Source: Sphagnum magellanicum
Taxonomy: Eukaryota; Streptophyta; Sphagnopsida; Sphagnales; Sphagnaceae
Assembly (NCBI GenBank): GCA_021904315.1
Contig: CM038911.1
Coordinates: 24,711,390-24,775,389, forward strand
Length of the DNA stretch: 64,000 bases
Direction: 5' to 3'
The translations under genes and the position numbers were made by a program. The notes below the pieces were generated by a model that searched no databases, was not told the DNA's origin, and saw only the letters and a list, made by a program, of their open reading frames with translations. Shown here piece after piece: positions 2,577 to 39,058 of this stretch; within the stretch, counting starts at the first letter, position 1, and every line of letters starts with the position of its first letter.

Positions 2577-4600
2577 ATGGCGGAGAAGCGAGTGAAGCTG
2601 AAGAGTTCTGATGATGAAATGTTTGAGGTGGAAGAGGCAGTGGCTTTTGAGTCGCAGGCTGTGAAGAACATGATTGAGGATACCGGTATGGATCATCCAA
2701 TTCCGTTACCGAACGTTTCCAGCAAGATTCTGGCCAAGGTAATAGAGTATTGCAAGTATCACGTCGATAACCAAAAGTCTACCGATGACAAGCCAGCCAC
2801 ACCTGAGGACGAAATCAAGGCCTGGGATCAGGACTTCGTCAAAGTAGACCAGGCGACACTTTTCGATCTTATCTTGGTGAGCATTCCCCGCCCTATTTTC
2901 TCTTTTCATGTCTTTCAGACGGTTTTTGTGCCGCAGATGTCTCCGCACTATGTTCGACTTTCTAGTGTTCAGTAGTGTTACAGGATAATAGACTATGTTT
3001 TCATGAATGCTTCACTGTTTCCGATGGTAATCTCTTCACGTCTAAGCCATTGTGGTTTGTATACGCTGAGACTTTATGTGTATGGCACCTTCGTTCTCTG
3101 CCTAGTGCACACCTGACCTATCCTGCTTGGGTCATGAGTAGCTTCTCCACTGTTATGTGGAAACAGTCTTTGTAAGGTTTCTAGTTTCTACTCTACTTGG
3201 TAAGATTGCACAACTACTGCAGCAAGTCACCTCGTATTGTCATGGAGTGGCTGACTTCCAGTAGATATTTTATTGTCTTGGATGACCGCTGTATGTTGTG
3301 CGGTCTTTGGATTTCTCATGACATTCTCAACTCCTGGACACTGTTGTGTATTTGTTTGTTTGTGTCATTGTTGCAGCAAGTGTGCCTGCTAATGCCACCT
3401 GCTTCCCCCAGCTCTCTCAAGCAATAATGTGCTGTTCCTTTCAAATCTTTTGAAGGACTTGAGCTGAATCTTAATTTCAGATATGAGCATTTTGTTCCTC
3501 ATGTGGATGCTGGTAGATTGTTGATGTCTTAGAGTTCCTTTTCTCGTTTTGATTGTAGTCATTGTCACTGACCTTTATGTCATTTCTTTATGAACCATCA
3601 GGAACATAAGCATTAGCACAAAAACTGATGGACAGGTTGGGGCAGGCATTTCTATGACTGGAGATCTTAACATGGGCAGATTTTGTTTTATTGTTTACCA
3701 AGGGTTTGAGCTTTGTGTCACTGAACAATAAAACGTCTCTATATTATCTGCAACTTGCCCTGAATGCATGATGATGGAACGTCCTTTTTTAACATAAAGT
3801 TCATTTTTGTCATTTCTCTGGTCTCAGTTGTTCTAAGATAATTGTGAGGAAAAGTAGTGTTGAAGTGGGAGTCATTGCTGTAGTAGTTCATTTGGTCAGG
3901 TGCCACTCACATTCTTCCTTTTCACCGTTAGCTCATGTTGTTATTCTCTCCATCTTATGTTAAAATGTTGAATGTGAGATCTTCTCTTGCTGAAGTTGCA
4001 TTGCAGGAATGTGGCAAGATGCTATCAGTGAATTTTTGTATGTTTCTCAGCATGTCATATAATCCTCTACCCACACTGTTGGGTTCAATGAAGTAAACCA
4101 CTGTAGCTGCAAGTTTACTTCCTCTTCATTTGTGTTTCTCTTTATGTCTGCCATGTCTATTTTCCCTGAGCGGTGATCAGTTATTTTTTCTGTCTAAAAT
4201 ACTGATCTTTCAGGGGGAATGTGACCCTAAAACATCAACATTTTAAAAGGAAAAAAAATGGCATAGACACATCCACCAGGTTTGAAGATATGTCAACACT
4301 CCTGTGTCAATTTGTAAGGTCCCTGGCAGACACCCTGATTGCAGTTATAAGTTTCTCATATTGAGATGTGTAGGCGATTAGTTGCTACTCAATAGCTATC
4401 CTGAAGTAGTTGTGCTGTATCTGCAGGCGGCAAATTACTTGAACATAAAGAGTCTGCTGGACCTTACTTGTCAAACAGTGGCTGATATGATCAAAGGCAA
4501 GACTCCAGAGGAGATACGCAAGACATTTAACATCAAGAATGACTTCACACCAGAAGAAGAAGAGGAAGTCCGACGGGAAAACCAGTGGGCCTTTGAGTGA
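2577..4600 (+). CDS. SKP1: SKP1-like SCF ubiquitin-ligase adaptor
   Basis: The protein links F-box proteins to cullin-1 in SCF E3 ubiquitin ligases, in nucleus and cytosol. CDS join(2577..2876, 4427..4600) encodes 157 residues, the usual SKP1 length. The intron (1550 bp) has a GTGAGC donor and CTGCAG acceptor and is phase 0, joining FDLIL to [15 protein letters not shown]. The N-terminal half (about 1-65) is the BTB/POZ-like fold, starting [12 protein letters not shown] and including LPNVSSKIL and VIEYCKYH. The C-terminal Skp1 domain carries [15 protein letters not shown] and ends in the family-typical NQWAFE, both part of the F-box-binding surface. ATG 2577 is the first ATG in frame and gives the canonical N-terminus. 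The GC-rich stretch 2220-2576 is the probable 5' leader. No defect is visible, so it should be functional. Confidence 0.96.
2877..4426 (+). other. SKP1 intron
   Basis: This single intron of 1550 bp splits the SKP1 coding sequence in phase 0. It is T-rich, as plant introns are. Short reading frames within it carry no recognisable motif. Confidence 0.9.
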
Positions 4601-7600
4601 ATTTCTGATGACAAGAGCTGGATATGTAACTGGCAGTCTTTCTCTGTCTCAAACTTGTCAGTCTTGGTTGCTCTCTTTTTGCATAGTGTCAGTGCTGCAC
4701 TATTGAATTGTGCATCCTTCCAAAACCAAAGTAGAAAGAAGGCACATGGCAGTCTTTTAGAAGGTTTCTGTCATTGATTGATGTATCCATAATCTTGGGG
4801 GTGGGGACCTTCACGTCGTCACTAAAATGTGGCACAAGGTCTTATGAGTCTGTTTGCTTAGATGTGGAATTGTATATGCTAAGCAGAGTGTAGTGGGCAG
4901 GAAGAATTCACTTCTTAGGTGTATTCTAATTATGGGAAGTACCAATCACATACCTTGATGTGATTTTGAGTAGTATAATCTTCTCTTGCTGGCATTTTTT
5001 TGCTTCATGGAATGTGCTGCATGAGTGTACATCTGAGTGCATATTGTGGGTGCTAAGTGAGGTGTTTTAGATGGGATTGTCATGGAACTGTGTGGTGTTG
5101 CAACAGTAACCAGTGTTATCTGTTGAGCTTTTTAGTTGTGTAGTGTTGTTATTAGATGAGCTGTTTGATCTCATGAGCATATTATTGAAGAGGCTTTTAG
5201 GCAAAGTCATTTCAACTTTTTCTGAAAACCCGTGGGAGTATGCTAGAGGAAGAGGGTACTTGACATAAGATTACATGGATAATTTCGACAGTGTCATTAT
5301 TTTCGATTTCCTGATGTTCCTCTTGAAATTAGAAACATAGTATCTTGTACAAAGAGAGCACTGTGGATGTGATTAGCTTTATCTCTGTACAAAGGGGTTG
5401 TCAAAATTAAATTGATTTCCTGAATACTATCATCTCAGTGTATTGTGATTTGTGACAGGATTTACCAAACAGCTTGGGTGCAGCTAGTGGGCACTGTACC
5501 AGAAGTCAATTGACTGAGATAAGTGTGTGCTTTTGGCCATGACTTGAAGTAATAGAGGTATGCCTTTACCATGCAATAAGTGGAGTGTTCACTGTAGAAG
5601 TGGCACTTCATATCAAGGACCTTCCAACAGAGGTTACTGTTCAAGAAAATATTGTTTTATTTACTGTCCTTTAGAAGCAGAGAATGTTTGTGTATTTACC
5701 ATAATCTTATCAGATACCCAAGCATTCTATTCAAGTGCATTTTTTGTGTTGTCTGGTTGGTAGGGTAAACTTGATCTTGATTTATATTACACATCCTGTT
5801 TGGTTAAATTACTATGTAAATGTTTTTGTGTCTCTTTAAAGGTGCTGTCATCAGAAGTTGAAAGTGCATTGTCTCTGAGCACTTTATAGGGTGCATGCCT
5901 AGGTACTCGGTGGCATATAACATGATCCAAAATGCTGCAGGATGGAAATCCACCCTAAGAATGCCAAAAGAGGTGCTTGCTCTGTTGGCCAGGGTGATCA
6001 CTTGGATGGCCCTCAAGGTCTGAGGTGAGGTATTTTCTCACTAGACCTGATAATAGAAGATTTTGCAAAGCAAGACACAAATAGGTTTTATATGCTGCAA
6101 AGGGTTTCATATGCTGAGTTTGAGTCTCAGTCTATCAAGGACCGAAGGGATCTCAATTGTGGATGAAGGTTAATGTCAACCCAATATTAGATTTGGTGAG
6201 CATTCTTCATAGCTTGTTTGGTTCTCTCCATAGAATGGACTGTTACCAACAGATATAGTCTTGTCCATTGTTTCAAAACATCTTGAGGGTCATTCAATGC
6301 TTATGTTGAATGCTGCAATACCTCATGCTTGTGCAAAGAAAAGTAGACAATATGGCAAGTGCTTCTGAAACAATTGTTGTGTCATGGATTATAGTGACAC
6401 TTGCTGTAAGAGATTTATGGTGACATCCTCAGGAAGGGAATTTCTTCCACATCTACTACCACCTCAAGGTCTTGGATGTGAGTGAACCAACAGTCCTCAG
6501 TGCACAATGAGGGATGGATGGTGGATGGGTTGGAAACACTTTGCCATTGGGTTCCAGGGCCCTAGCTAACCAGGGTGTTTGCTCAGCTGATATTTTTACC
6601 ACCTACCTCTTAACAACCCACTAGCCCTTACCTATGTACTAACCATCTACATGCATCTATCTGCTTAAGGCCTGTTCAGACATGAAGAGAACATGGTTGA
6701 TAAAATGAGTGATAACTAAAATTGTTCAAACTTGAAGCAAATTGTCTAGAAATAGCTGATGTCGCAAATGATGTCGCTTCACTATCATGAAGAAAACTTT
6801 TAAGGTAAGGAACATGGTAATGTATTTTCACCATGTTAAAAATCTTCATATGATGAAGATTTTGGTGCTGAATGTAGTTGATAGCCTAACAGCCTGGAAT
6901 CCTAACTACTAGTTTATCAATAAGCTTGTTTATCATCAAGCTCTACTCTCCCAGGCCTCACCAGCACTCCCTTACTCTACATCAGTTATGCATCCAAATT
7001 CCACCATCACCTCTTGCTCTGCACAAATGTAACACTCATGCCTCACAGTTGCATCTTTGCTCTATCCATGTTTGCCTTAATTTATGAGTCTGCCATCAAT
7101 CTTTGTTGTCACTATATTTTATTGCCAGCATTATTTCATGTGGCTCAATTCACGTGTGCACTGTTAAAATCTATCATTAGCACTAGCTTTGTTGTCATGA
7201 TGTCCTCAAGCATTGTCCTCACCAATTCAAGCTCTGCTGCCAATACTTCCTCATGCACTGCCATTGTGTCATGTCTTGAGGACGCTTTGTTGTTACTACA
7301 AGCTCTGCTGCCAACACTTCTTCATGCTCTGCAATCATGTTTTCACACTCTGCATTGCTGCCTCTTACACTCACATTCTTCCACATTTTGATCTTGTGAA
7401 GAAGAATTTTGAGAATACAATGCAAAAGAACTACAGTGAATAAAAAGCTCTGAAAGCCTTGAGCAGATAGCAATGAGTCCAAAGTAGAGAGCAAACTAAA
7501 ATGGTATGACTATTTCATCATGGACTGAGGTTGGCACCTGTGGTGCATATTGTATTTATAACCAAGAAGACATGTAGGTGTGAATGATGATATGCAAAAT

Positions 7601-31499: not shown

Positions 31500-34400
31500 A
31501 TGCTTCGGAAATTATGCTTATCATGTGGAAAGCCACGTTCTACTGACTTTGACACTGAAAGGTCGGCTTGGGGAAAGGCTTCTCCTTCAACAGCTGCTCC
31601 AAGGGCATCTCACGATGTAAGCATTCCAATTCTAGTGTAGTTTTTTCATTAGGTTCTGAAGCAAAAATTTCATACATACTCTTGAGGCTCAACTTAGAAT
31701 ACTGTAAAATTAAGTTATCAGTGTAATAATTAGCACATATAAAGCTCATGGATTTGACATGTTTTGAGCAAATAACCAAAGATTGCTGTTTTTTATGATT
31801 ATCAACATTCTATGCGGATGCTCGCAAGACCAACGAGATCTGCAATTCTATCGTCTCTGATTGTCAAAGTTTTTAGCATTGATGCTTCAAGACGTGTCTC
31901 ATCCTTTTACTGGCGACTTGTCTGATCAGTCCTTGACACTTGATATATTAAGGAGTGGGTTTTGAATATAAGTAGCAACGAATTGCAAACCAGAGTGTCC
32001 CAATTTGGAGGCATTAAATCCCTTTGTAATTGTGTTACAGAATTACAAGGATAATGAAGGTCGATCCGTGCATCAACTATGGCCCCTTGAAGATCATGTG
32101 CGTTCAACCAACTTTGATGTGGTGTTTTTTCATGGCCTACACTGGCCAAGTGAAAAGGAAGCTTGGAAAAGTACTTGGACACAACTCGATGACCCCCAAG
32201 ATTGTTGGCCTCAAAATTGGCTGCCCCAAGACTTGGACGAGAACGTGCGCGTCTTGTCCATATCATATGATGCTTGTCCCACACAATCTGAAGAGAAGGG
32301 GAGCTATGATGATGTCTCAGAAATTGGGAAAAACATACTACAAACCCTCGTGCTCAGGTTTCTGTCACCTTATAACATCCGTAATACATATTCTTTAATT
32401 AAGTGGTGTTGTACAGAAAAAGGCTATTTTCCATCTTACTACTCCGTTTGAATATGATCCTTACACATGTTATGGTTTCAACAAAGAAGCATCTACAACA
32501 TGACTTTTGGGTAGATTTTATAGAATAGTCATTTTCAAGAATGTTGCAGAGGGCATTTGTTTGCACTCACTTTGTGGTTAACTTGCATCTTTTTCTGCTA
32601 TATTTTGTTATTTTTCATTGGAACATTCAACAAAAGGAGCCTTTCCCTCAGTAAGTCATCTATAATAATGAAGTTCATTAATGGGGTCTAAAGTTTTACC
32701 ATCACTTTTCTTGTGGCAGTGATGAATGGAGGTTGGGTCGACAACATGGGTTTGTTTTAATAGGCCATTGTTTTGGTGGTCTGGTGATCAAAAGCTTGGT
32801 TGAGGAGGTACGCAAAAGAGCACTAGAAAATGTGCGAAATGCGATTGACAGAAAAGCTAAAGAATGTGCTGAAATGTTCTTGAAAAATTTGAAAGGCGTT
32901 GTCTTTTATGCAGTTCCCCATTCCGGTTCGGAAAATTTGATATCCTACTTCAGCCGCTGCAATCAGATCACGATTCCAAGGAGGGTTGTCAAGCTGGCTG
33001 GGTTCATGCAAAATGTCCAACCACATCAATTAAAGATGGAAAACTTGTCAATAACCTTTGATGACATAGTGGAGGAATTTTCTATAAATGTTTATGCTTT
33101 CGCTGAAGGCAAGCCTATGAAAGATGTGGTAAGTGGTGAATTTATGCATGTGAATATCCACTTAGACATCACCAACGACATCTAGTACTTGTGATGGTGA
33201 AACAGATTGTTCGACGTCCATCCCATTGCCAATGCTGACATGCATATTGTTGACAATTTATAAAGAAATTGGTTCATTTTTATGGCATTACCACATCCTT
33301 GTTACTCATGAAAACATGTGAATAACAGGGGTTCAGATTGGTGGAGAAGTCAGCAGCACTGAGATCAGCTGGGAAAAACTATTATACTTTGGAGGATGGT
33401 GACCATTCTACAGTTTGCAAGCCTTCGGGCAAGAACCATCCAAGCTATTATCGCCTTCTAGATTTTATTAGGACATGTCGACAAGAGGTTAGTCGCATCC
33501 TTGGATTCATATTTCAATGGCCCTCGCTCTTTGTTGTGGATTTAGTGGTGAGTTTTAAATTGATACATCTGATGAACATTTTAATATTCGAGACAGTAGT
33601 TGTGAGTTGAAAATAAAGCATCTCGGACAGGTCCCCTGTTGCATCTACATGTTGCAGGAGTTGGGACTTGTGACGTGCATAATGAAGCCATAATATCATT
33701 TTTTCACAAAAGGGCTAGATTTTGTTTTGGAACAATGTGACACACATTCATTAATGAAGAGGTAGATAGTAGTAGGTTATCTCTTGTAGCCAATGGCACG
33801 GTTGTCGTAACAATGATGTCCCTTAAACATGAGAGAACATTATAGATGTGCATGAGGCATATTAACATTTATAAGATCATTACATTTGAAATGGCAATAT
33901 TAAAAATTAGTTGTAATTTGGGGTTTGATTGAGGGCGTGGGGGGGGGGGGGGGGGAGGGAACCCTCCTGCAAATGTCAGTTTAAAAATTCAGTTAATTGT
34001 AAATGCACTAACATTCATCTAGGTGGGATAAAAATGACATTAGTATGTTGATGTATGCAGGAAATAATAAAACCAATAACATACGTGGGTTTTGAGTATA
34101 ATTGGAAAGCAAACTTCCAATTTTATGTGGAACCTTCAAACTTGCCCAATATTCTTTTGCAAAAATTGAAGGAGGAAGGAGCAAAAAATATCTTGGTTTA
34201 TGGGGGTTTTGGCTACGGAAAAACAACCTTGGTGAAATATGTTTTGTACAAGAATGCCAAGGAGTTGGGCATTACTTTTCAGGGAGGGATTTTCCATATG
34301 AGATATGGTCACAAGGGCAATGAAGTATTATCATGCCAAAAGGAGCTTATAAGGGCCATTCAGCTAAATCCCCAAGAGGTATCAATACAAGCCTATTTTG

Positions 34401-37400
34401 CATGCACCCCAACATTCTATTGCCATGAATGTGGTGGGAGAATAGTCATGAAGTATTTGCTCGGATGTCTGACATATATGTGTATGCATCACCAACATCT
34501 ATAAATGTTCTTCTATCATTCAAACCAAGTTGAAGAAAGGGTAGTACATGTGTAGCAAGGTTTCCTTTGATCAAGTTGTTGAATACTAACAGCATGGTTG
34601 ACACAAATATTATGCAACTATTTTGAATTAACTTGATATGTTAAATGCATCACATGTAAGTATGCCATGTGATTGAAATTAATTTATCACGTGCAGCTCC
34701 AGGGGCTTGAAGGTTGGCAAATTGGAGGTGTTCGTGCAATGTTGGAAGAACTTTTGAATGGACGCTGTGGCCCTATTTTATTATTCATAGATAATGTGTG
34801 GAGTGAGCAAATGATTAACTATTCACCTGAATTCGTATCGACAAAAGGGTCCAAGTTGGTAGTCACTTCAAGGTTCAACTTGAAACTGAACCAACCTAAT
34901 TGGATTCGGATTGAAATGAACCAAAGAACAAACAAAAATGCTGCTGCACAATTACTTGCAAGCAAAGCTGCAAATAATCCAAAAGAAACAAAATTTCCTC
35001 TTGGTTGCGAGGTAAGGTTATCTTCTTTTTTCCATGATTGAAAGGAATGTAATAAGAATTTAATATTAAGGCAAATGTGATGAAATATTGGTGAGCAACA
35101 ATTAGGGGAGGAAGAGAAAAGTTGTTCCCCTCATGGGTTTGCCTTAATGGGACTTTATTTGAAACGGAAAAAATTCTAGAACTTGGATTTTCCCTTATCA
35201 TGTCAAAGTGTATCCATGTGAACTTAAAATTTTAATATATATTGTGTTGATGCAGCATATAGCAGAAAAACTTTTGTCCAAGTGCAATGGTTGCCTTTTG
35301 GCCATTACAATCATCGGTGCAATTTTGTGGGCAAACAAAGCCCAAACTCCTGAAAAATGGAAAGATGTGTATGACAAATTCAAAGATTATGCTAATGAAG
35401 TGCCTACGGTTGAAGATTACGAAGGGGAGTCAAAAACAATTTTTGCAGCAATTGAGTTGAGTCTTAAATATGGACAAGAAGAAAGTGATCAGGTTGGGAT
35501 GGAGAATATCCTTCAAACATTATCATTACTGAAGAAAATTGAAATCCGGGCATGTCCAGCTATTGTAGTGCATTTGGTTTGGAGTTACCTACAACCTGAA
35601 CGAGGAATTATTCACTTTAAAATGTTATTGGATCGTCTTATTGCAAGAAAGCTTGTGGACTTTGAAAGTATGCGAGCTGACGAAATATTTTTGCAAGACT
35701 CATGGGAGTTTCAAAAATTGAGGCTGCCTGAGTTGGTACAAGAATATGTGTCAGTGAAACTTCATGCAATTGACATTTGCAATATTCTTGAGAAGGGAAG
35801 TCAAGAATTGTTCACAGAAAGAAAAAAAATTCTTCTTGCCACATTTCTACCAATATGTAGGACAAGGCATACCAATTTAGAATTTGCATTGTCCCTTGGC
35901 AAATTTTATTATGAAAATTGGGAACGTGAACAGCTATTCACACTATTGGGAACCGAAGCTGAAAATGTAATACTTTTAGCCTCTCAACCTCACAAGATGA
36001 CTCAAGGAGACATAAATGTTTTGCTTCATCTATTGAATAATGACAAAGTTCGAACATGGGCAGCAGCAGTTTATATATTGGCTCAACTTGCAAAGCACTT
36101 CTATGAAGATGACATTTTTCAACATATAAGCATCCAAGGCTTTATTCAAAATTGGAAACATCAATGGAAAGAAAGAACCCAAAGCTATAGCTATATTCAA
36201 ATTTGGAAACATCAATGGGAAAAAAGAACCGATGCATATTTTCATCCATATCTTTGCTTCCCTGGTCAGTTGGAGGAGTATCTTTGCTCTATAGCCTATA
36301 AGTTGGTAAAGTATAGAACATTTGCAGAGCAGTTTGCAATTGATGAAGATTTTATGGAAATTGTGACAAATATAATCATAAAGCATCATTCTTTATGGTC
36401 TAAGAGCCATCCGGAAGAGCATCATATTTTATGGTCTGAGAGCCTTTCTTTGTTGTTCAAATTGAGCCAACATAAGAATGTTAGAAATATTCTCTATAAA
36501 AAATACACCAAAATTTCCATGAAAAATATTCTTAAGCAAATTTCTTCAAAGTTGATCCATGAAATAAAGTTGTTCCTAGTAACAGAATTGGTCCAACCTA
36601 AAGATGTACATTATTTTAAGATGAGTGGGTTTAGCATTTCGGCCTTACCATTACAATATGCGGACATGTTGGCAATCCAAATTATTGACGAAGGTGATGA
36701 TGACTTTGTCTTGGGAGTCTTTGATTATTTCTTTACAAATGGCTCAAGATTTCATGCGATTGAACCATTCGATCCTATTGCAAAACTATTGTTTTCGATT
36801 TTGGAAAGATTGGCAAAACGAAAGGAAGGTCAAGCTATTATTATTAAATATGTTCATTTGCTTCTACGATTCTTCGAATGTGTACATGGCTATCGCATGC
36901 GCCGAGGTGTTAGCAAACTTGTTCAACATAAGGCGATTGCACAAGCTTTTATTACACAAGAAGGGGTTGAACTATTAGTTGGTGCATTGGAACGAGGGAA
37001 GGTAGCCATTGTTCCTCTTGTTTTGCGATGTTTGTTTTTCGAAAATGAAGAATTTGCTTACAAAGTAATTGCACAAGGAGGATGGAGAATGATGACAAAA
37101 GGGTTACAATTAATGTTGCCATATGGCATGTTTGAATTTTCACTTACGCATATTGCAAGAGAAATGGCATCAAAAGGTGAAATCCAAGAGTTGGTAATGG
37201 AAGTTATAAACAAAAATAATAGTGAATATTGCTTAAAGTTACTAAAACATCTAGTAACCTACCATATGGACATCATGAGAGAGGAACTCATTGTGAAAGG
37301 TGTAATACGATGTCTTTTAGCTTGTTTGAGTTCATTAAATCACTCGAAGAATTATGAAATAATCACTAGTGGCCTACTTCAGAAGGTGGCACATGACATC

Positions 37401-39058
37401 AAGGGAGCTGAGGAAATGATGGTTCACAATGGAATTCAAGTGCTCATGCAACTACTAGTTGTTGGGCTTAATGACAAAAAAACGAACGATGGGTATATTC
37501 AAAGTATTGTTGACATCATCAAACTATTGGTCAACGGCTTAGAGGATCTCACGAAGCTTTTAAATTCATCAATAGATGACATTGATGTCTTAAAAATTCA
37601 TGAAACATGCTTGCGTCAATATCATTCATCGTGTCTTTCATTTCTTCCAGAAACACTAGATGTTAACATCAACATTGCCAAGGAATGGTTAAATTCTCTT
37701 GGACCACCCTTCCATGCTTTTAACAATAGCTCGTATATACATAAGGTTGATTATGAAAATGATTATAAAAATCATTATATTGCAGTCTATCACCTTATTC
37801 AATTGTCTAACCACACAGATATTGCAAGCCTAATCATGGCTAATGAAGGAATGTTGGAAAGCTTTATAATTCAATTGTCTAAAGGCAATTTACATCATAA
37901 TACTTTTAAACTTCTTGAAGTTGTGTTGCAACATGAAAGAGTGGCTATCGAAGTTCTAGATCAACGGCCTTCCTTCATCAAGGAGTTGCTTCAAATTTTT
38001 CTTATGGAAAGTCCATTTTTCACATGGCAAAACATGTATAGTGTTGCATCACTTTTGTTCATATTAGCAAAACATGGAGGTGTATTTACCAAGTTCATTG
38101 TGAATGATGGTGGAATTAAAATTTTGTTAAACAAAGTTTTATTACAAAATCGGAATGGCCGTTGCGATGTCATAGAAGTTTTGGGTATCATGGCCAAAGA
38201 TGAAGATTATGCTTTACAAATTGAAAAAGCTGGGGGGAGCAAGATGTTATTGAAGGCAATTTCTTGTTATCTTCAATATGTGCATGATACACATTTGGAG
38301 GAAATGACTCTTGATGATCAATTGATAGAAGAGTATGAAAATGACCGTTTAGTTATGTGTTGTTTGAAAACACTTTCACTTCTTCTTAATCATGAGGAGA
38401 TAGCAAAACAAATTTCAACTAGAAGAGGAGATTCAAAGGAATATGGGATTATGGCGTTAATTGATGTGATGCAAACTGCATCACAACTTTGGTCTTCTAT
38501 TACGTTAATTCTACGTAAAACTGTTGTAACCAAGAAACTCATGCAAATCGAAGGCCACATGTTGACTATACTATCAAATGTTGCTTCAACATTGGTTTTG
38601 ATGGCCAAATTGCATCCACACATCAACATATCAACAAAGGTGAATGAAAATGTTTTGAAAGGGATTTTCCAACTACAAGGTATGATTACTAATGAACATC
38701 AAGCACTAAAAAAAGCACTACAAGACTTGCTAGACATCAAGGAATTTCACGTAAAAATATGGAGTTGTCAACAATTACGCTCAAAGACAATTGATATGCA
38801 ATCTTATCAAGGTATGGCATTTTAGCTACATGTTGACATGAAATTTTCCTTCGTATTCCTTCATAACGATGGCTACAATGAGTTTTTTTCTACCATCAAA
38901 CATTGCAAGTGTTATTAATATTTTATCAAAAGTTAGGTTCTCATCACCATTTGTTTTTGTCCCCAGGAAAGTTTGGTGAATGTGAAGCTCATTTTGGAGT
39001 AAAAGGTACCTCAACTGAAGGTCAATCAAGTGGGACAACAAAAGAGGATGATGGCTAG
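31500..39058 (+). CDS. Alpha/beta-hydrolase - NB-ARC - ARM-like repeat protein
   Basis: A probable STAND/NLR-type ATPase switch. Model: join(31500..31616, 32041..32357, 32720..33128, 33329..33487, 34061..34378, 34697..35011, 35256..38811, 38967..39058), 1760 residues, all junctions GT-AG and in phase. Residues 1-39 form a Ser/Ala-rich leader; ATG 31500 follows an in-frame TGA. Residues 60-330 resemble the SERAC1-like hydrolase: VVFFHGL, WPQNWLP, elbow GHCFGG (160-165) and HS in DGDHSTVCKP (His307). NB-ARC follows: P-loop GGFGYGKTT (382-390), kinase-2 ILLFIDNVW (467-475), RNBS-B GSKLVVTSR (491-499), GLPL-like GCLLAI (557-562); an MHD-position motif reads LRLPELVQEYV. From about 800 on come ARM/HEAT-like helical repeats such as VNDGGIKILL. 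No LRR is visible. Exon 1 is the least certain part. Family knowledge: hydrolase-NB-ARC proteins are reported from bryophytes. Immune function is inferred. Confidence 0.87.
33939..33955 (+). repeat. G homopolymer (about 17 G) in an intron
   Basis: The run lies in the intron before the P-loop exon of the NB-ARC gene, about 105 bases upstream of the acceptor at 34060. Its length is likely to vary and may be a sequencing or assembly weak spot. Confidence 0.8.
35256..38811 (+). other. Large 3.5-kb exon: end of NB-ARC and solenoid
   Basis: This exon of the hydrolase-NB-ARC gene is open for 1185 codons without interruption. It begins at the TGCAG acceptor with HIAEKLLSKCNGCLLAI (GLPL region) and carries the ARC2-like part and all ARM-like repeats. 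Repeated patterns such as 'I.(N/Q)(D/E)G(G/V)(I/V)..L' appear at intervals, for example around residues AFITQEGVELLVGAL, MVHNGIQVLMQLL and IMANEGMLESFI. Open length this great in AT-rich DNA shows it is under selection. Confidence 0.95.

Follow-up and report, generated by a model that had tools for sequence, protein, structure and literature searches.

Do an α/β-hydrolase, an NB-ARC switch and a long helical solenoid belong to a single gene of the moss Sphagnum magellanicum, and if so, what kind of protein does this gene encode? The question is raised by a stretch of 64,000 nucleotides (C5:24711390-24775389 of a 439-Mb genome assembly in 31 contigs; hereafter the window), for which an earlier note had proposed one continuous in-phase model of eight exons, including a complete NB-ARC switch. 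The single model holds. Seven exons on the forward strand (31500–38825; Table 1) splice in phase to yield a stop-free protein of 1734 amino acids (acceptor 32040/32041), with every intron being GT-AG and intron phases of 0, 2, 0, 0, 0 and 0. The introns within the hydrolase (33129–33328) and between hydrolase and NB-ARC (33488–34060) are both of phase 0; the latter contains a run of 17 G residues (33939–33955). The weakest part of the model is the first exon (31500–31616), whose sole support is a like-placed phase-0 donor in two other copies of the gene, L040 and L041; before its addition, the six-exon join read from 31972 comprised 1719 codons in phase. The eighth exon could in principle be formed from donor 38812 and acceptor 38967, with a stop whose last base is exactly 39058, but it is dispensable, because exon 7 (35256–38825) carries its own stop at 38825; moreover, inspection of the closest relative, L039, by eye revealed no counterpart.

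The same arrangement recurs elsewhere in this genome. Protein searches, which scored best candidates only and thus provide lower bounds, revealed a hydrolase together with this type of NB-ARC at at least 19 loci: the window on contig C5, nine loci on C2, five on C12 and one each on C9, C11, C16 and C17 (hereafter ARM-type copies). At all 19 loci found, the hydrolase exons precede the NB-ARC on the same strand within a few kb. A match to the window solenoid with E ≤0.01 was obtained at 12 of them including the window, two matches being weak and short (C2:26211326 and C2:26326744). Splice junctions were modelled in six further copies (L039, L040, L041, L042, L043 and L044), and in four of these (L040, L041, L042 and L044) the hydrolase/NB-ARC junction is of phase 0 and lies at the homologous place. 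L039 is broken up by stops, the intra-NB-ARC junction of L042 was not convincingly recovered, and in L043 neither junction of the third hydrolase exon could be recovered. The L040 model is stop-free over 1332 amino acids. Solenoids of the C2 copies stop ~300 residues short of the window-copy end, and the last-exon frames of C2 and C17 copies span ~820–845 amino acids in seven out of ten cases. The C9 copy contains in-frame stops. L043 (C11:11879300-11887290, reverse) is probably broken as well, since a 476-amino-acid frame, reverse transcriptase-like by eye, starts where its last-exon frame ends (oriented positions 4705–6132). On C12, hydrolase and NB-ARC of this type are present in L044 (C12:9549000-9556990), for example; none of the C12 copies matches the window solenoid at E 0.01, and their sensor part may possibly have been swapped, have diverged or have been lost.

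The NB-ARC is complete, as is characteristic of plant NLR/STAND proteins: the spliced window protein matches the Pfam profile with 65 bits (cut-off 23.5; E 7.9e-18) over positions 8–245 of 248. Its motifs are a P-loop (GGFGYGKT), a kinase-2 (ILLFIDNVW), an RNBS-B (KLVVTSR) and a GLPL-like motif (CNGCLLAITIIG). Taken singly, the two NB-ARC exons of the window score 15.3 and 23.3 bits, that is under the cut-off, and those of L040 and L041 slightly above it; exon-wise surveys, or surveys based on leucine-rich repeats (LRRs), could therefore miss such genes. The nearest solved structure by sequence is At5g66900 (8yl6; E 7.2e-7), which together with the W-ending kinase-2, a mark of the coiled-coil (CC)/RPW8 class, makes the domain lean to CC/RPW8. 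In a tree of 16 NB-ARC rows, however, the five ARM-type NB-ARCs group together (support 100/100; the L042 row simply strings open exon pieces together, with unverified splice sites) on a branch as long as 3.8 changes per column, away from NB-ARCs of the CNL, TNL and hydrolase-LRR types in this genome.

The C-terminal part was predicted as helix-only, with no strands, in two AlphaFold2 runs (predicted local distance difference test scores of 45 and 61). Fold comparison of the part encoded at 37821–38754, using a moderate single-sequence model, returned ARM repeats as best matches with other helical repeats close behind, and on this comparison the repeats appear most like ARM. Pfam LRR profiles had no match in the C-terminal part of the window copy; the same library does detect LRRs in L063, a hydrolase-NLR of this genome. 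The proposal that ARM-like helices replace LRRs is borne out for the predicted helices and the absence of LRRs, and the fold matches favour ARM, but ARM identity found no counterpart in sequence: Pfam Arm had no match in the solenoid with the threshold raised up to E 10, and hhalign, run with four parts of the solenoid on four ARM open frames from moss, gave non-significant scores of 17–24 with probabilities of at most 1.5% (controls: LRR 13–16, LRR-versus-ARM 16, ten shuffled sequences 11–16). A PDB profile search returned seven weak matches, including NRC NB-ARC pieces from E 0.079, PF16 (E 0.14) and an aminopeptidase, and phmmer with the last 316 amino acids returned one ribosomal protein (E 0.066).

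The domains also differ in their selective constraint. Ratios of nonsynonymous to synonymous substitution rates (dN/dS) were determined in the C2/C17 clade as pooled pairwise Nei-Gojobori estimates with bootstrap 95% ranges; pairs are non-independent, and gene conversion could lower dS. The hydrolase domain is under purifying selection (0.44, 0.32–0.60; 288 codons, ten copies), in clear contrast to the middle of the solenoid (codons 161–640), for which a ratio of 1.16 (0.97–1.41; nine copies) was obtained. Solenoid codons 641–800 yielded 0.53 (0.36–0.77), the whole solenoid 1.05 (0.90–1.24) and the NB-ARC 0.67 (0.49–0.95; 353 codons). Owing to overlapping loci, five genes were present twice in the set for the first NB-ARC exon, and the solenoid sets omit L051, which shares its open frame and length with L050. 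When five codons round gaps were masked in six near-full-length copies, the mid-solenoid ratio was 1.20 (0.93–1.59) and that of codons 641–800 was 0.52 (0.31–0.91). The long copies are unlikely to be drifting neutrally, because neutral evolution should have left ~15 stops between L040 and L041 in the last exon, and none was found in the compared frames.

What, then, does the conserved hydrolase do? The N-terminal α/β-hydrolase known from hydrolase-NBS-LRR (HNL) proteins is present in the window model (Abhydrolase_6, E 2.9e-4), and its GHxFGG exon is 45–53% identical to that of LRR-type hydrolase-NLRs of the same genome (L007, L063 and others). The GxSxG signature of serine α/β-hydrolases is absent from the window copy, where the nucleophile motif reads GHCFGG. 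Among 41 loci examined, 39 had a readable motif (all except L081 and L084). Cysteine occupies the nucleophile position in 18 of the 19 ARM-type rows, window included, whereas all 20 other hydrolases carry serine, i.e. 12 CNL-like, four TNL-like, three hydrolase genes with unread tails and one hydrolase-kinase (the names CNL- and TNL-like rest on reading of open frames for L007, L062, L063 and L064 and on similarity for the remaining rows). Among the matches listed, an NB-ARC lies beside at least 11 of the 12 CNL-like and at least two of the four TNL-like hydrolases. The sole serine among ARM-type rows belongs to the broken C9 copy; as this is the nearest row to the window copy, the Ser/Cys state needs two changes. 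The ARM-type rows are not strictly one clade in the hydrolase tree (39 rows, the L064 row filling 27% of columns), the hydrolase-kinase L061 falling among them; they form a single clade in 40% of bootstrap trees. On this tree the architecture would require two changes, and it may still have had a single origin. Both trees combined suggest at least three kinds of hydrolase-NB-ARC genes in this moss. L061 itself (C6:2729900-2736500) is a possible hydrolase-kinase fusion, in which a hydrolase with Ser nucleophile, near the ARM-type (423–2714), is followed by a kinase (3081–4682; Pfam PK_Tyr_Ser-Thr, E 3.5e-49), with no NB-ARC among the matches listed.

The exchange of serine for cysteine brings up the strongest alternative for this domain, namely that it is a catalytically dead, EDS1-like module, which would signal by binding lipids or partner proteins once the NB-ARC has oligomerized. 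Near-uniform cysteine, opposed to invariant serine in the related hydrolases, speaks for such a module, and we regard it as quite possible, albeit short of likely. On the other hand, the conserved histidine is kept in all 16 ARM-type copies whose exon DNA was covered (L065, L066 and L067 lie outside; the search pattern required the H), purifying selection acts on the domain, and α/β-hydrolases with a cysteine nucleophile exist, e.g. dienelactone hydrolase. The label 'lipase-like effector' given to the domain in the earlier note is in any case uncertain, since cysteine takes the nucleophile position in the window copy and in all but one of the other 18.

Taken together, the gene probably encodes an intracellular NLR-type receptor of the STAND class, in which a solenoid sensor acts through an NB-ARC switch on a hydrolase effector. 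The architecture, the clustered family, the shared junction, the cysteine and the constraint pattern are features of the sequence itself; a role in immunity, oligomerization and an enzymatic output are what we infer from them. In the resting state, the hydrolase would be kept inactive by the solenoid together with an ADP-bound NB-ARC. Once the variable solenoid binds its target, either a molecule produced by a pathogen or a host protein that has been modified, the NB-ARC would exchange its nucleotide and oligomerize. Hydrolase domains brought together in this way may attack lipids or acylated proteins and set off defence or cell death. The nucleophile would, in this clade, be a cysteine with the conserved histidine as its partner. 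The sensor-effector idea as such gains support from the domain-by-domain dN/dS profile and the clustered multicopy family. Going further, we tentatively propose, as a possibility that is itself rather doubtful, a receptor class of the moss lineage that combines a Cys-nucleophile α/β-hydrolase (thiol esterase, thioesterase or acyltransferase) with a highly diverged NB-ARC gate and readout by a diversifying ARM-like solenoid.

Several observations weigh against the receptor interpretation. Seven of the 19 copies have no solenoid match at E 0.01, and the last-exon frame is cut short in three of the ten C2/C17 copies (585, 597 and 693 amino acids). The hydrolase scores under the Pfam cut-off (22.0 versus 26.3 bits), the change from Ser to Cys may signify lost catalysis, and the nearest relative of the window copy, albeit broken, carries Ser. 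Neither Pfam Arm nor hhalign supports the ARM identity. Finally, the dN/dS clade excludes the window copy, solenoid ratios above 1 are not significant, and upon masking the whole solenoid gives 0.99 (0.80–1.26) and the NB-ARC end an uninformative 0.94 (0.47–2.15).

A function outside immunity has been suggested for the rice NB-ARM protein RLS1, which a title cited in PMC10586772 describes as acting in chloroplast degradation during senescence; the gene could likewise encode a non-immune regulator whose clusters reflect ordinary tandem duplication. We consider this unlikely, since clustered copies and variability in the mid-solenoid resemble immune receptors, and RLS1 itself could regulate immunity according to parts of PMC12512272. 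Similarly improbable is that the window copy is an orphan that has begun to decay: the copy nearest to it, on C9, is broken by in-frame stops and no close intact copy was found among the best candidates scored in the genome searches, but the window copy itself has intact splice sites and no stop within its 1734 codons. That two adjacent genes, a hydrolase and an NB-ARC-solenoid gene, were wrongly joined is hardly credible, for although the joined model was read from genomic DNA, order and strand are identical at all 19 loci found and the same phase-0 junction recurs in four of the six modelled copies.

Table 1. Exons and domains of the hydrolase-NB-ARC-solenoid gene (window positions)
Feature	Position	Strand	Basis
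Putative first coding exon (MLRKLCLSCGKPRSTDF...), start codon uncertain	31500..31616	+	Phase-0 donor as in exon 1 of L040 and L041
Hydrolase exon 1 (FDVVFFHGL...)	32041..32357	+	57–66% identity to same exon in other copies of this type
Hydrolase exon 2, nucleophile motif GHCFGG (Cys for Ser)	32720..33128	+	51–63% identity at 18 further loci
Hydrolase exon 3, conserved histidine (LEDGDHSTVCKP)	33329..33487	+	Pattern match across copies
NB-ARC exon 1, P-loop GGFGYGKTT	34061..34378	+	Spliced NB-ARC match, 65 bits, E 7.9e-18
NB-ARC exon 2, kinase-2 ILLFIDNVW, RNBS-B KLVVTSR	34697..35011	+	Pfam match after splicing
Start of last exon: GLPL-like CNGCLLAITIIG, Pfam NB-ARC end ~35462, presumed remainder of switch	35256..35750	+	End approximate, inferred
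Helical solenoid, ~1000 residues, ARM-like; stop at 38825	35751..38825	+	AlphaFold2 helices, fold comparison, relatives at 11 of 18 other loci
Optional eighth exon, if donor 38812 is used	38967..39058	+	Splice sites and stop exist

Within the literature searched, the hydrolase-NB-ARC-ARM combination was not found among the matches listed, and it could stand in supplementary tables; wording that pairs cysteine or hydrolase with NLRs likewise returned HNL only in unrelated senses among the matches listed. As far as searched, this combination, the Cys nucleophile and the selection profile are thus new. If the receptor reading is true, plants, like fungi, exchange both the effector and the sensor end around the NB-ARC, and ARM-like solenoids are able to act as fast-evolving recognition surfaces. 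If the Cys-hydrolase class is true, a non-LRR recognition surface would drive an effector chemistry other than a TIR NADase or a CC pore; the Ser-to-Cys switch, kept in most of the clustered family, poses a directly testable question on this unstudied chemistry.

A system distinct from TIR- and CC-type NLRs, as the earlier note envisaged, would not be wholly separate, because bryophyte hydrolase-NLRs, plant CC-NB-ARM proteins and ARM-type NLRs of Selaginella are already known. Passages of PMC11850516 state that canonical NLRs are absent from mosses, which is contradicted by passages of PMC11218826 and by the NB-ARC matches in this genome. On C6, a TIR-NB gene (L060, C6:24752500-24758000, reverse strand; TIR by eye) is preceded by an open frame with more than 12 near-identical repeats of ~38 amino acids each (VSATRSVTSEAGS...). 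The same-genome hydrolase-NLRs L063 and L007 (CNL-like) and L062 (TNL-like) share with the window gene a related hydrolase and an NB-ARC, but have a Ser nucleophile, NB-ARCs of other clades, and LRRs (shown by Pfam in L063, by eye in L007 and L062). In L062 (C14:8930000-8934500), many near-identical LRRs of ~24 amino acids (SNLKELPPSIGQLNALQKLYLSGC) suggest a recent repeat expansion.

Hydrolase-NLRs with LRRs and phase-0 introns are indeed described from bryophytes, as anticipated, in parts of PMC3352924 and PMC11218826. The hydrolase domains of two Marchantia NLRs trigger hypersensitive response-like reactions in N. benthamiana (same parts of PMC11218826), which supports the receptor reading, and Chia et al. 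report there that minor subclades of hydrolase-NLRs from Sphagnum fall within the CC/RPW8 clade. Like bryophyte HNLs, the window gene combines an N-terminal α/β-hydrolase with an NB-ARC and has phase-0 introns in the hydrolase and before the NBS (compare passages of PMC3352924). Unlike them, it carries a helical ARM-like solenoid and no C-terminal LRRs, a Cys where they have Ser, an additional phase-2 intron in the hydrolase, and an NB-ARC that is split by two phase-0 introns and sits on a very long separate branch. With CC-NB-ARM proteins, conserved in plants and including RLS1 (passages of PMC12512272), and with the ARM-type NLRs prominent in Selaginella (parts of PMC8559963 and PMC7145615), it shares, in architecture, an NB-ARC followed by ARM(-like) repeats; it differs from both in its N-terminal hydrolase, which, judging from the domain matches, precedes the NB-ARC where CC-NB-ARM proteins have a coiled-coil. 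Finally, fungal sesB-like (lipase) NACHT or NB-ARC proteins with TPR or HEAT repeats, as described in parts of PMC4986451, belong to a different lineage, but resemble the window gene in architecture, i.e. in joining a lipase-like effector, a STAND switch and helical repeats.

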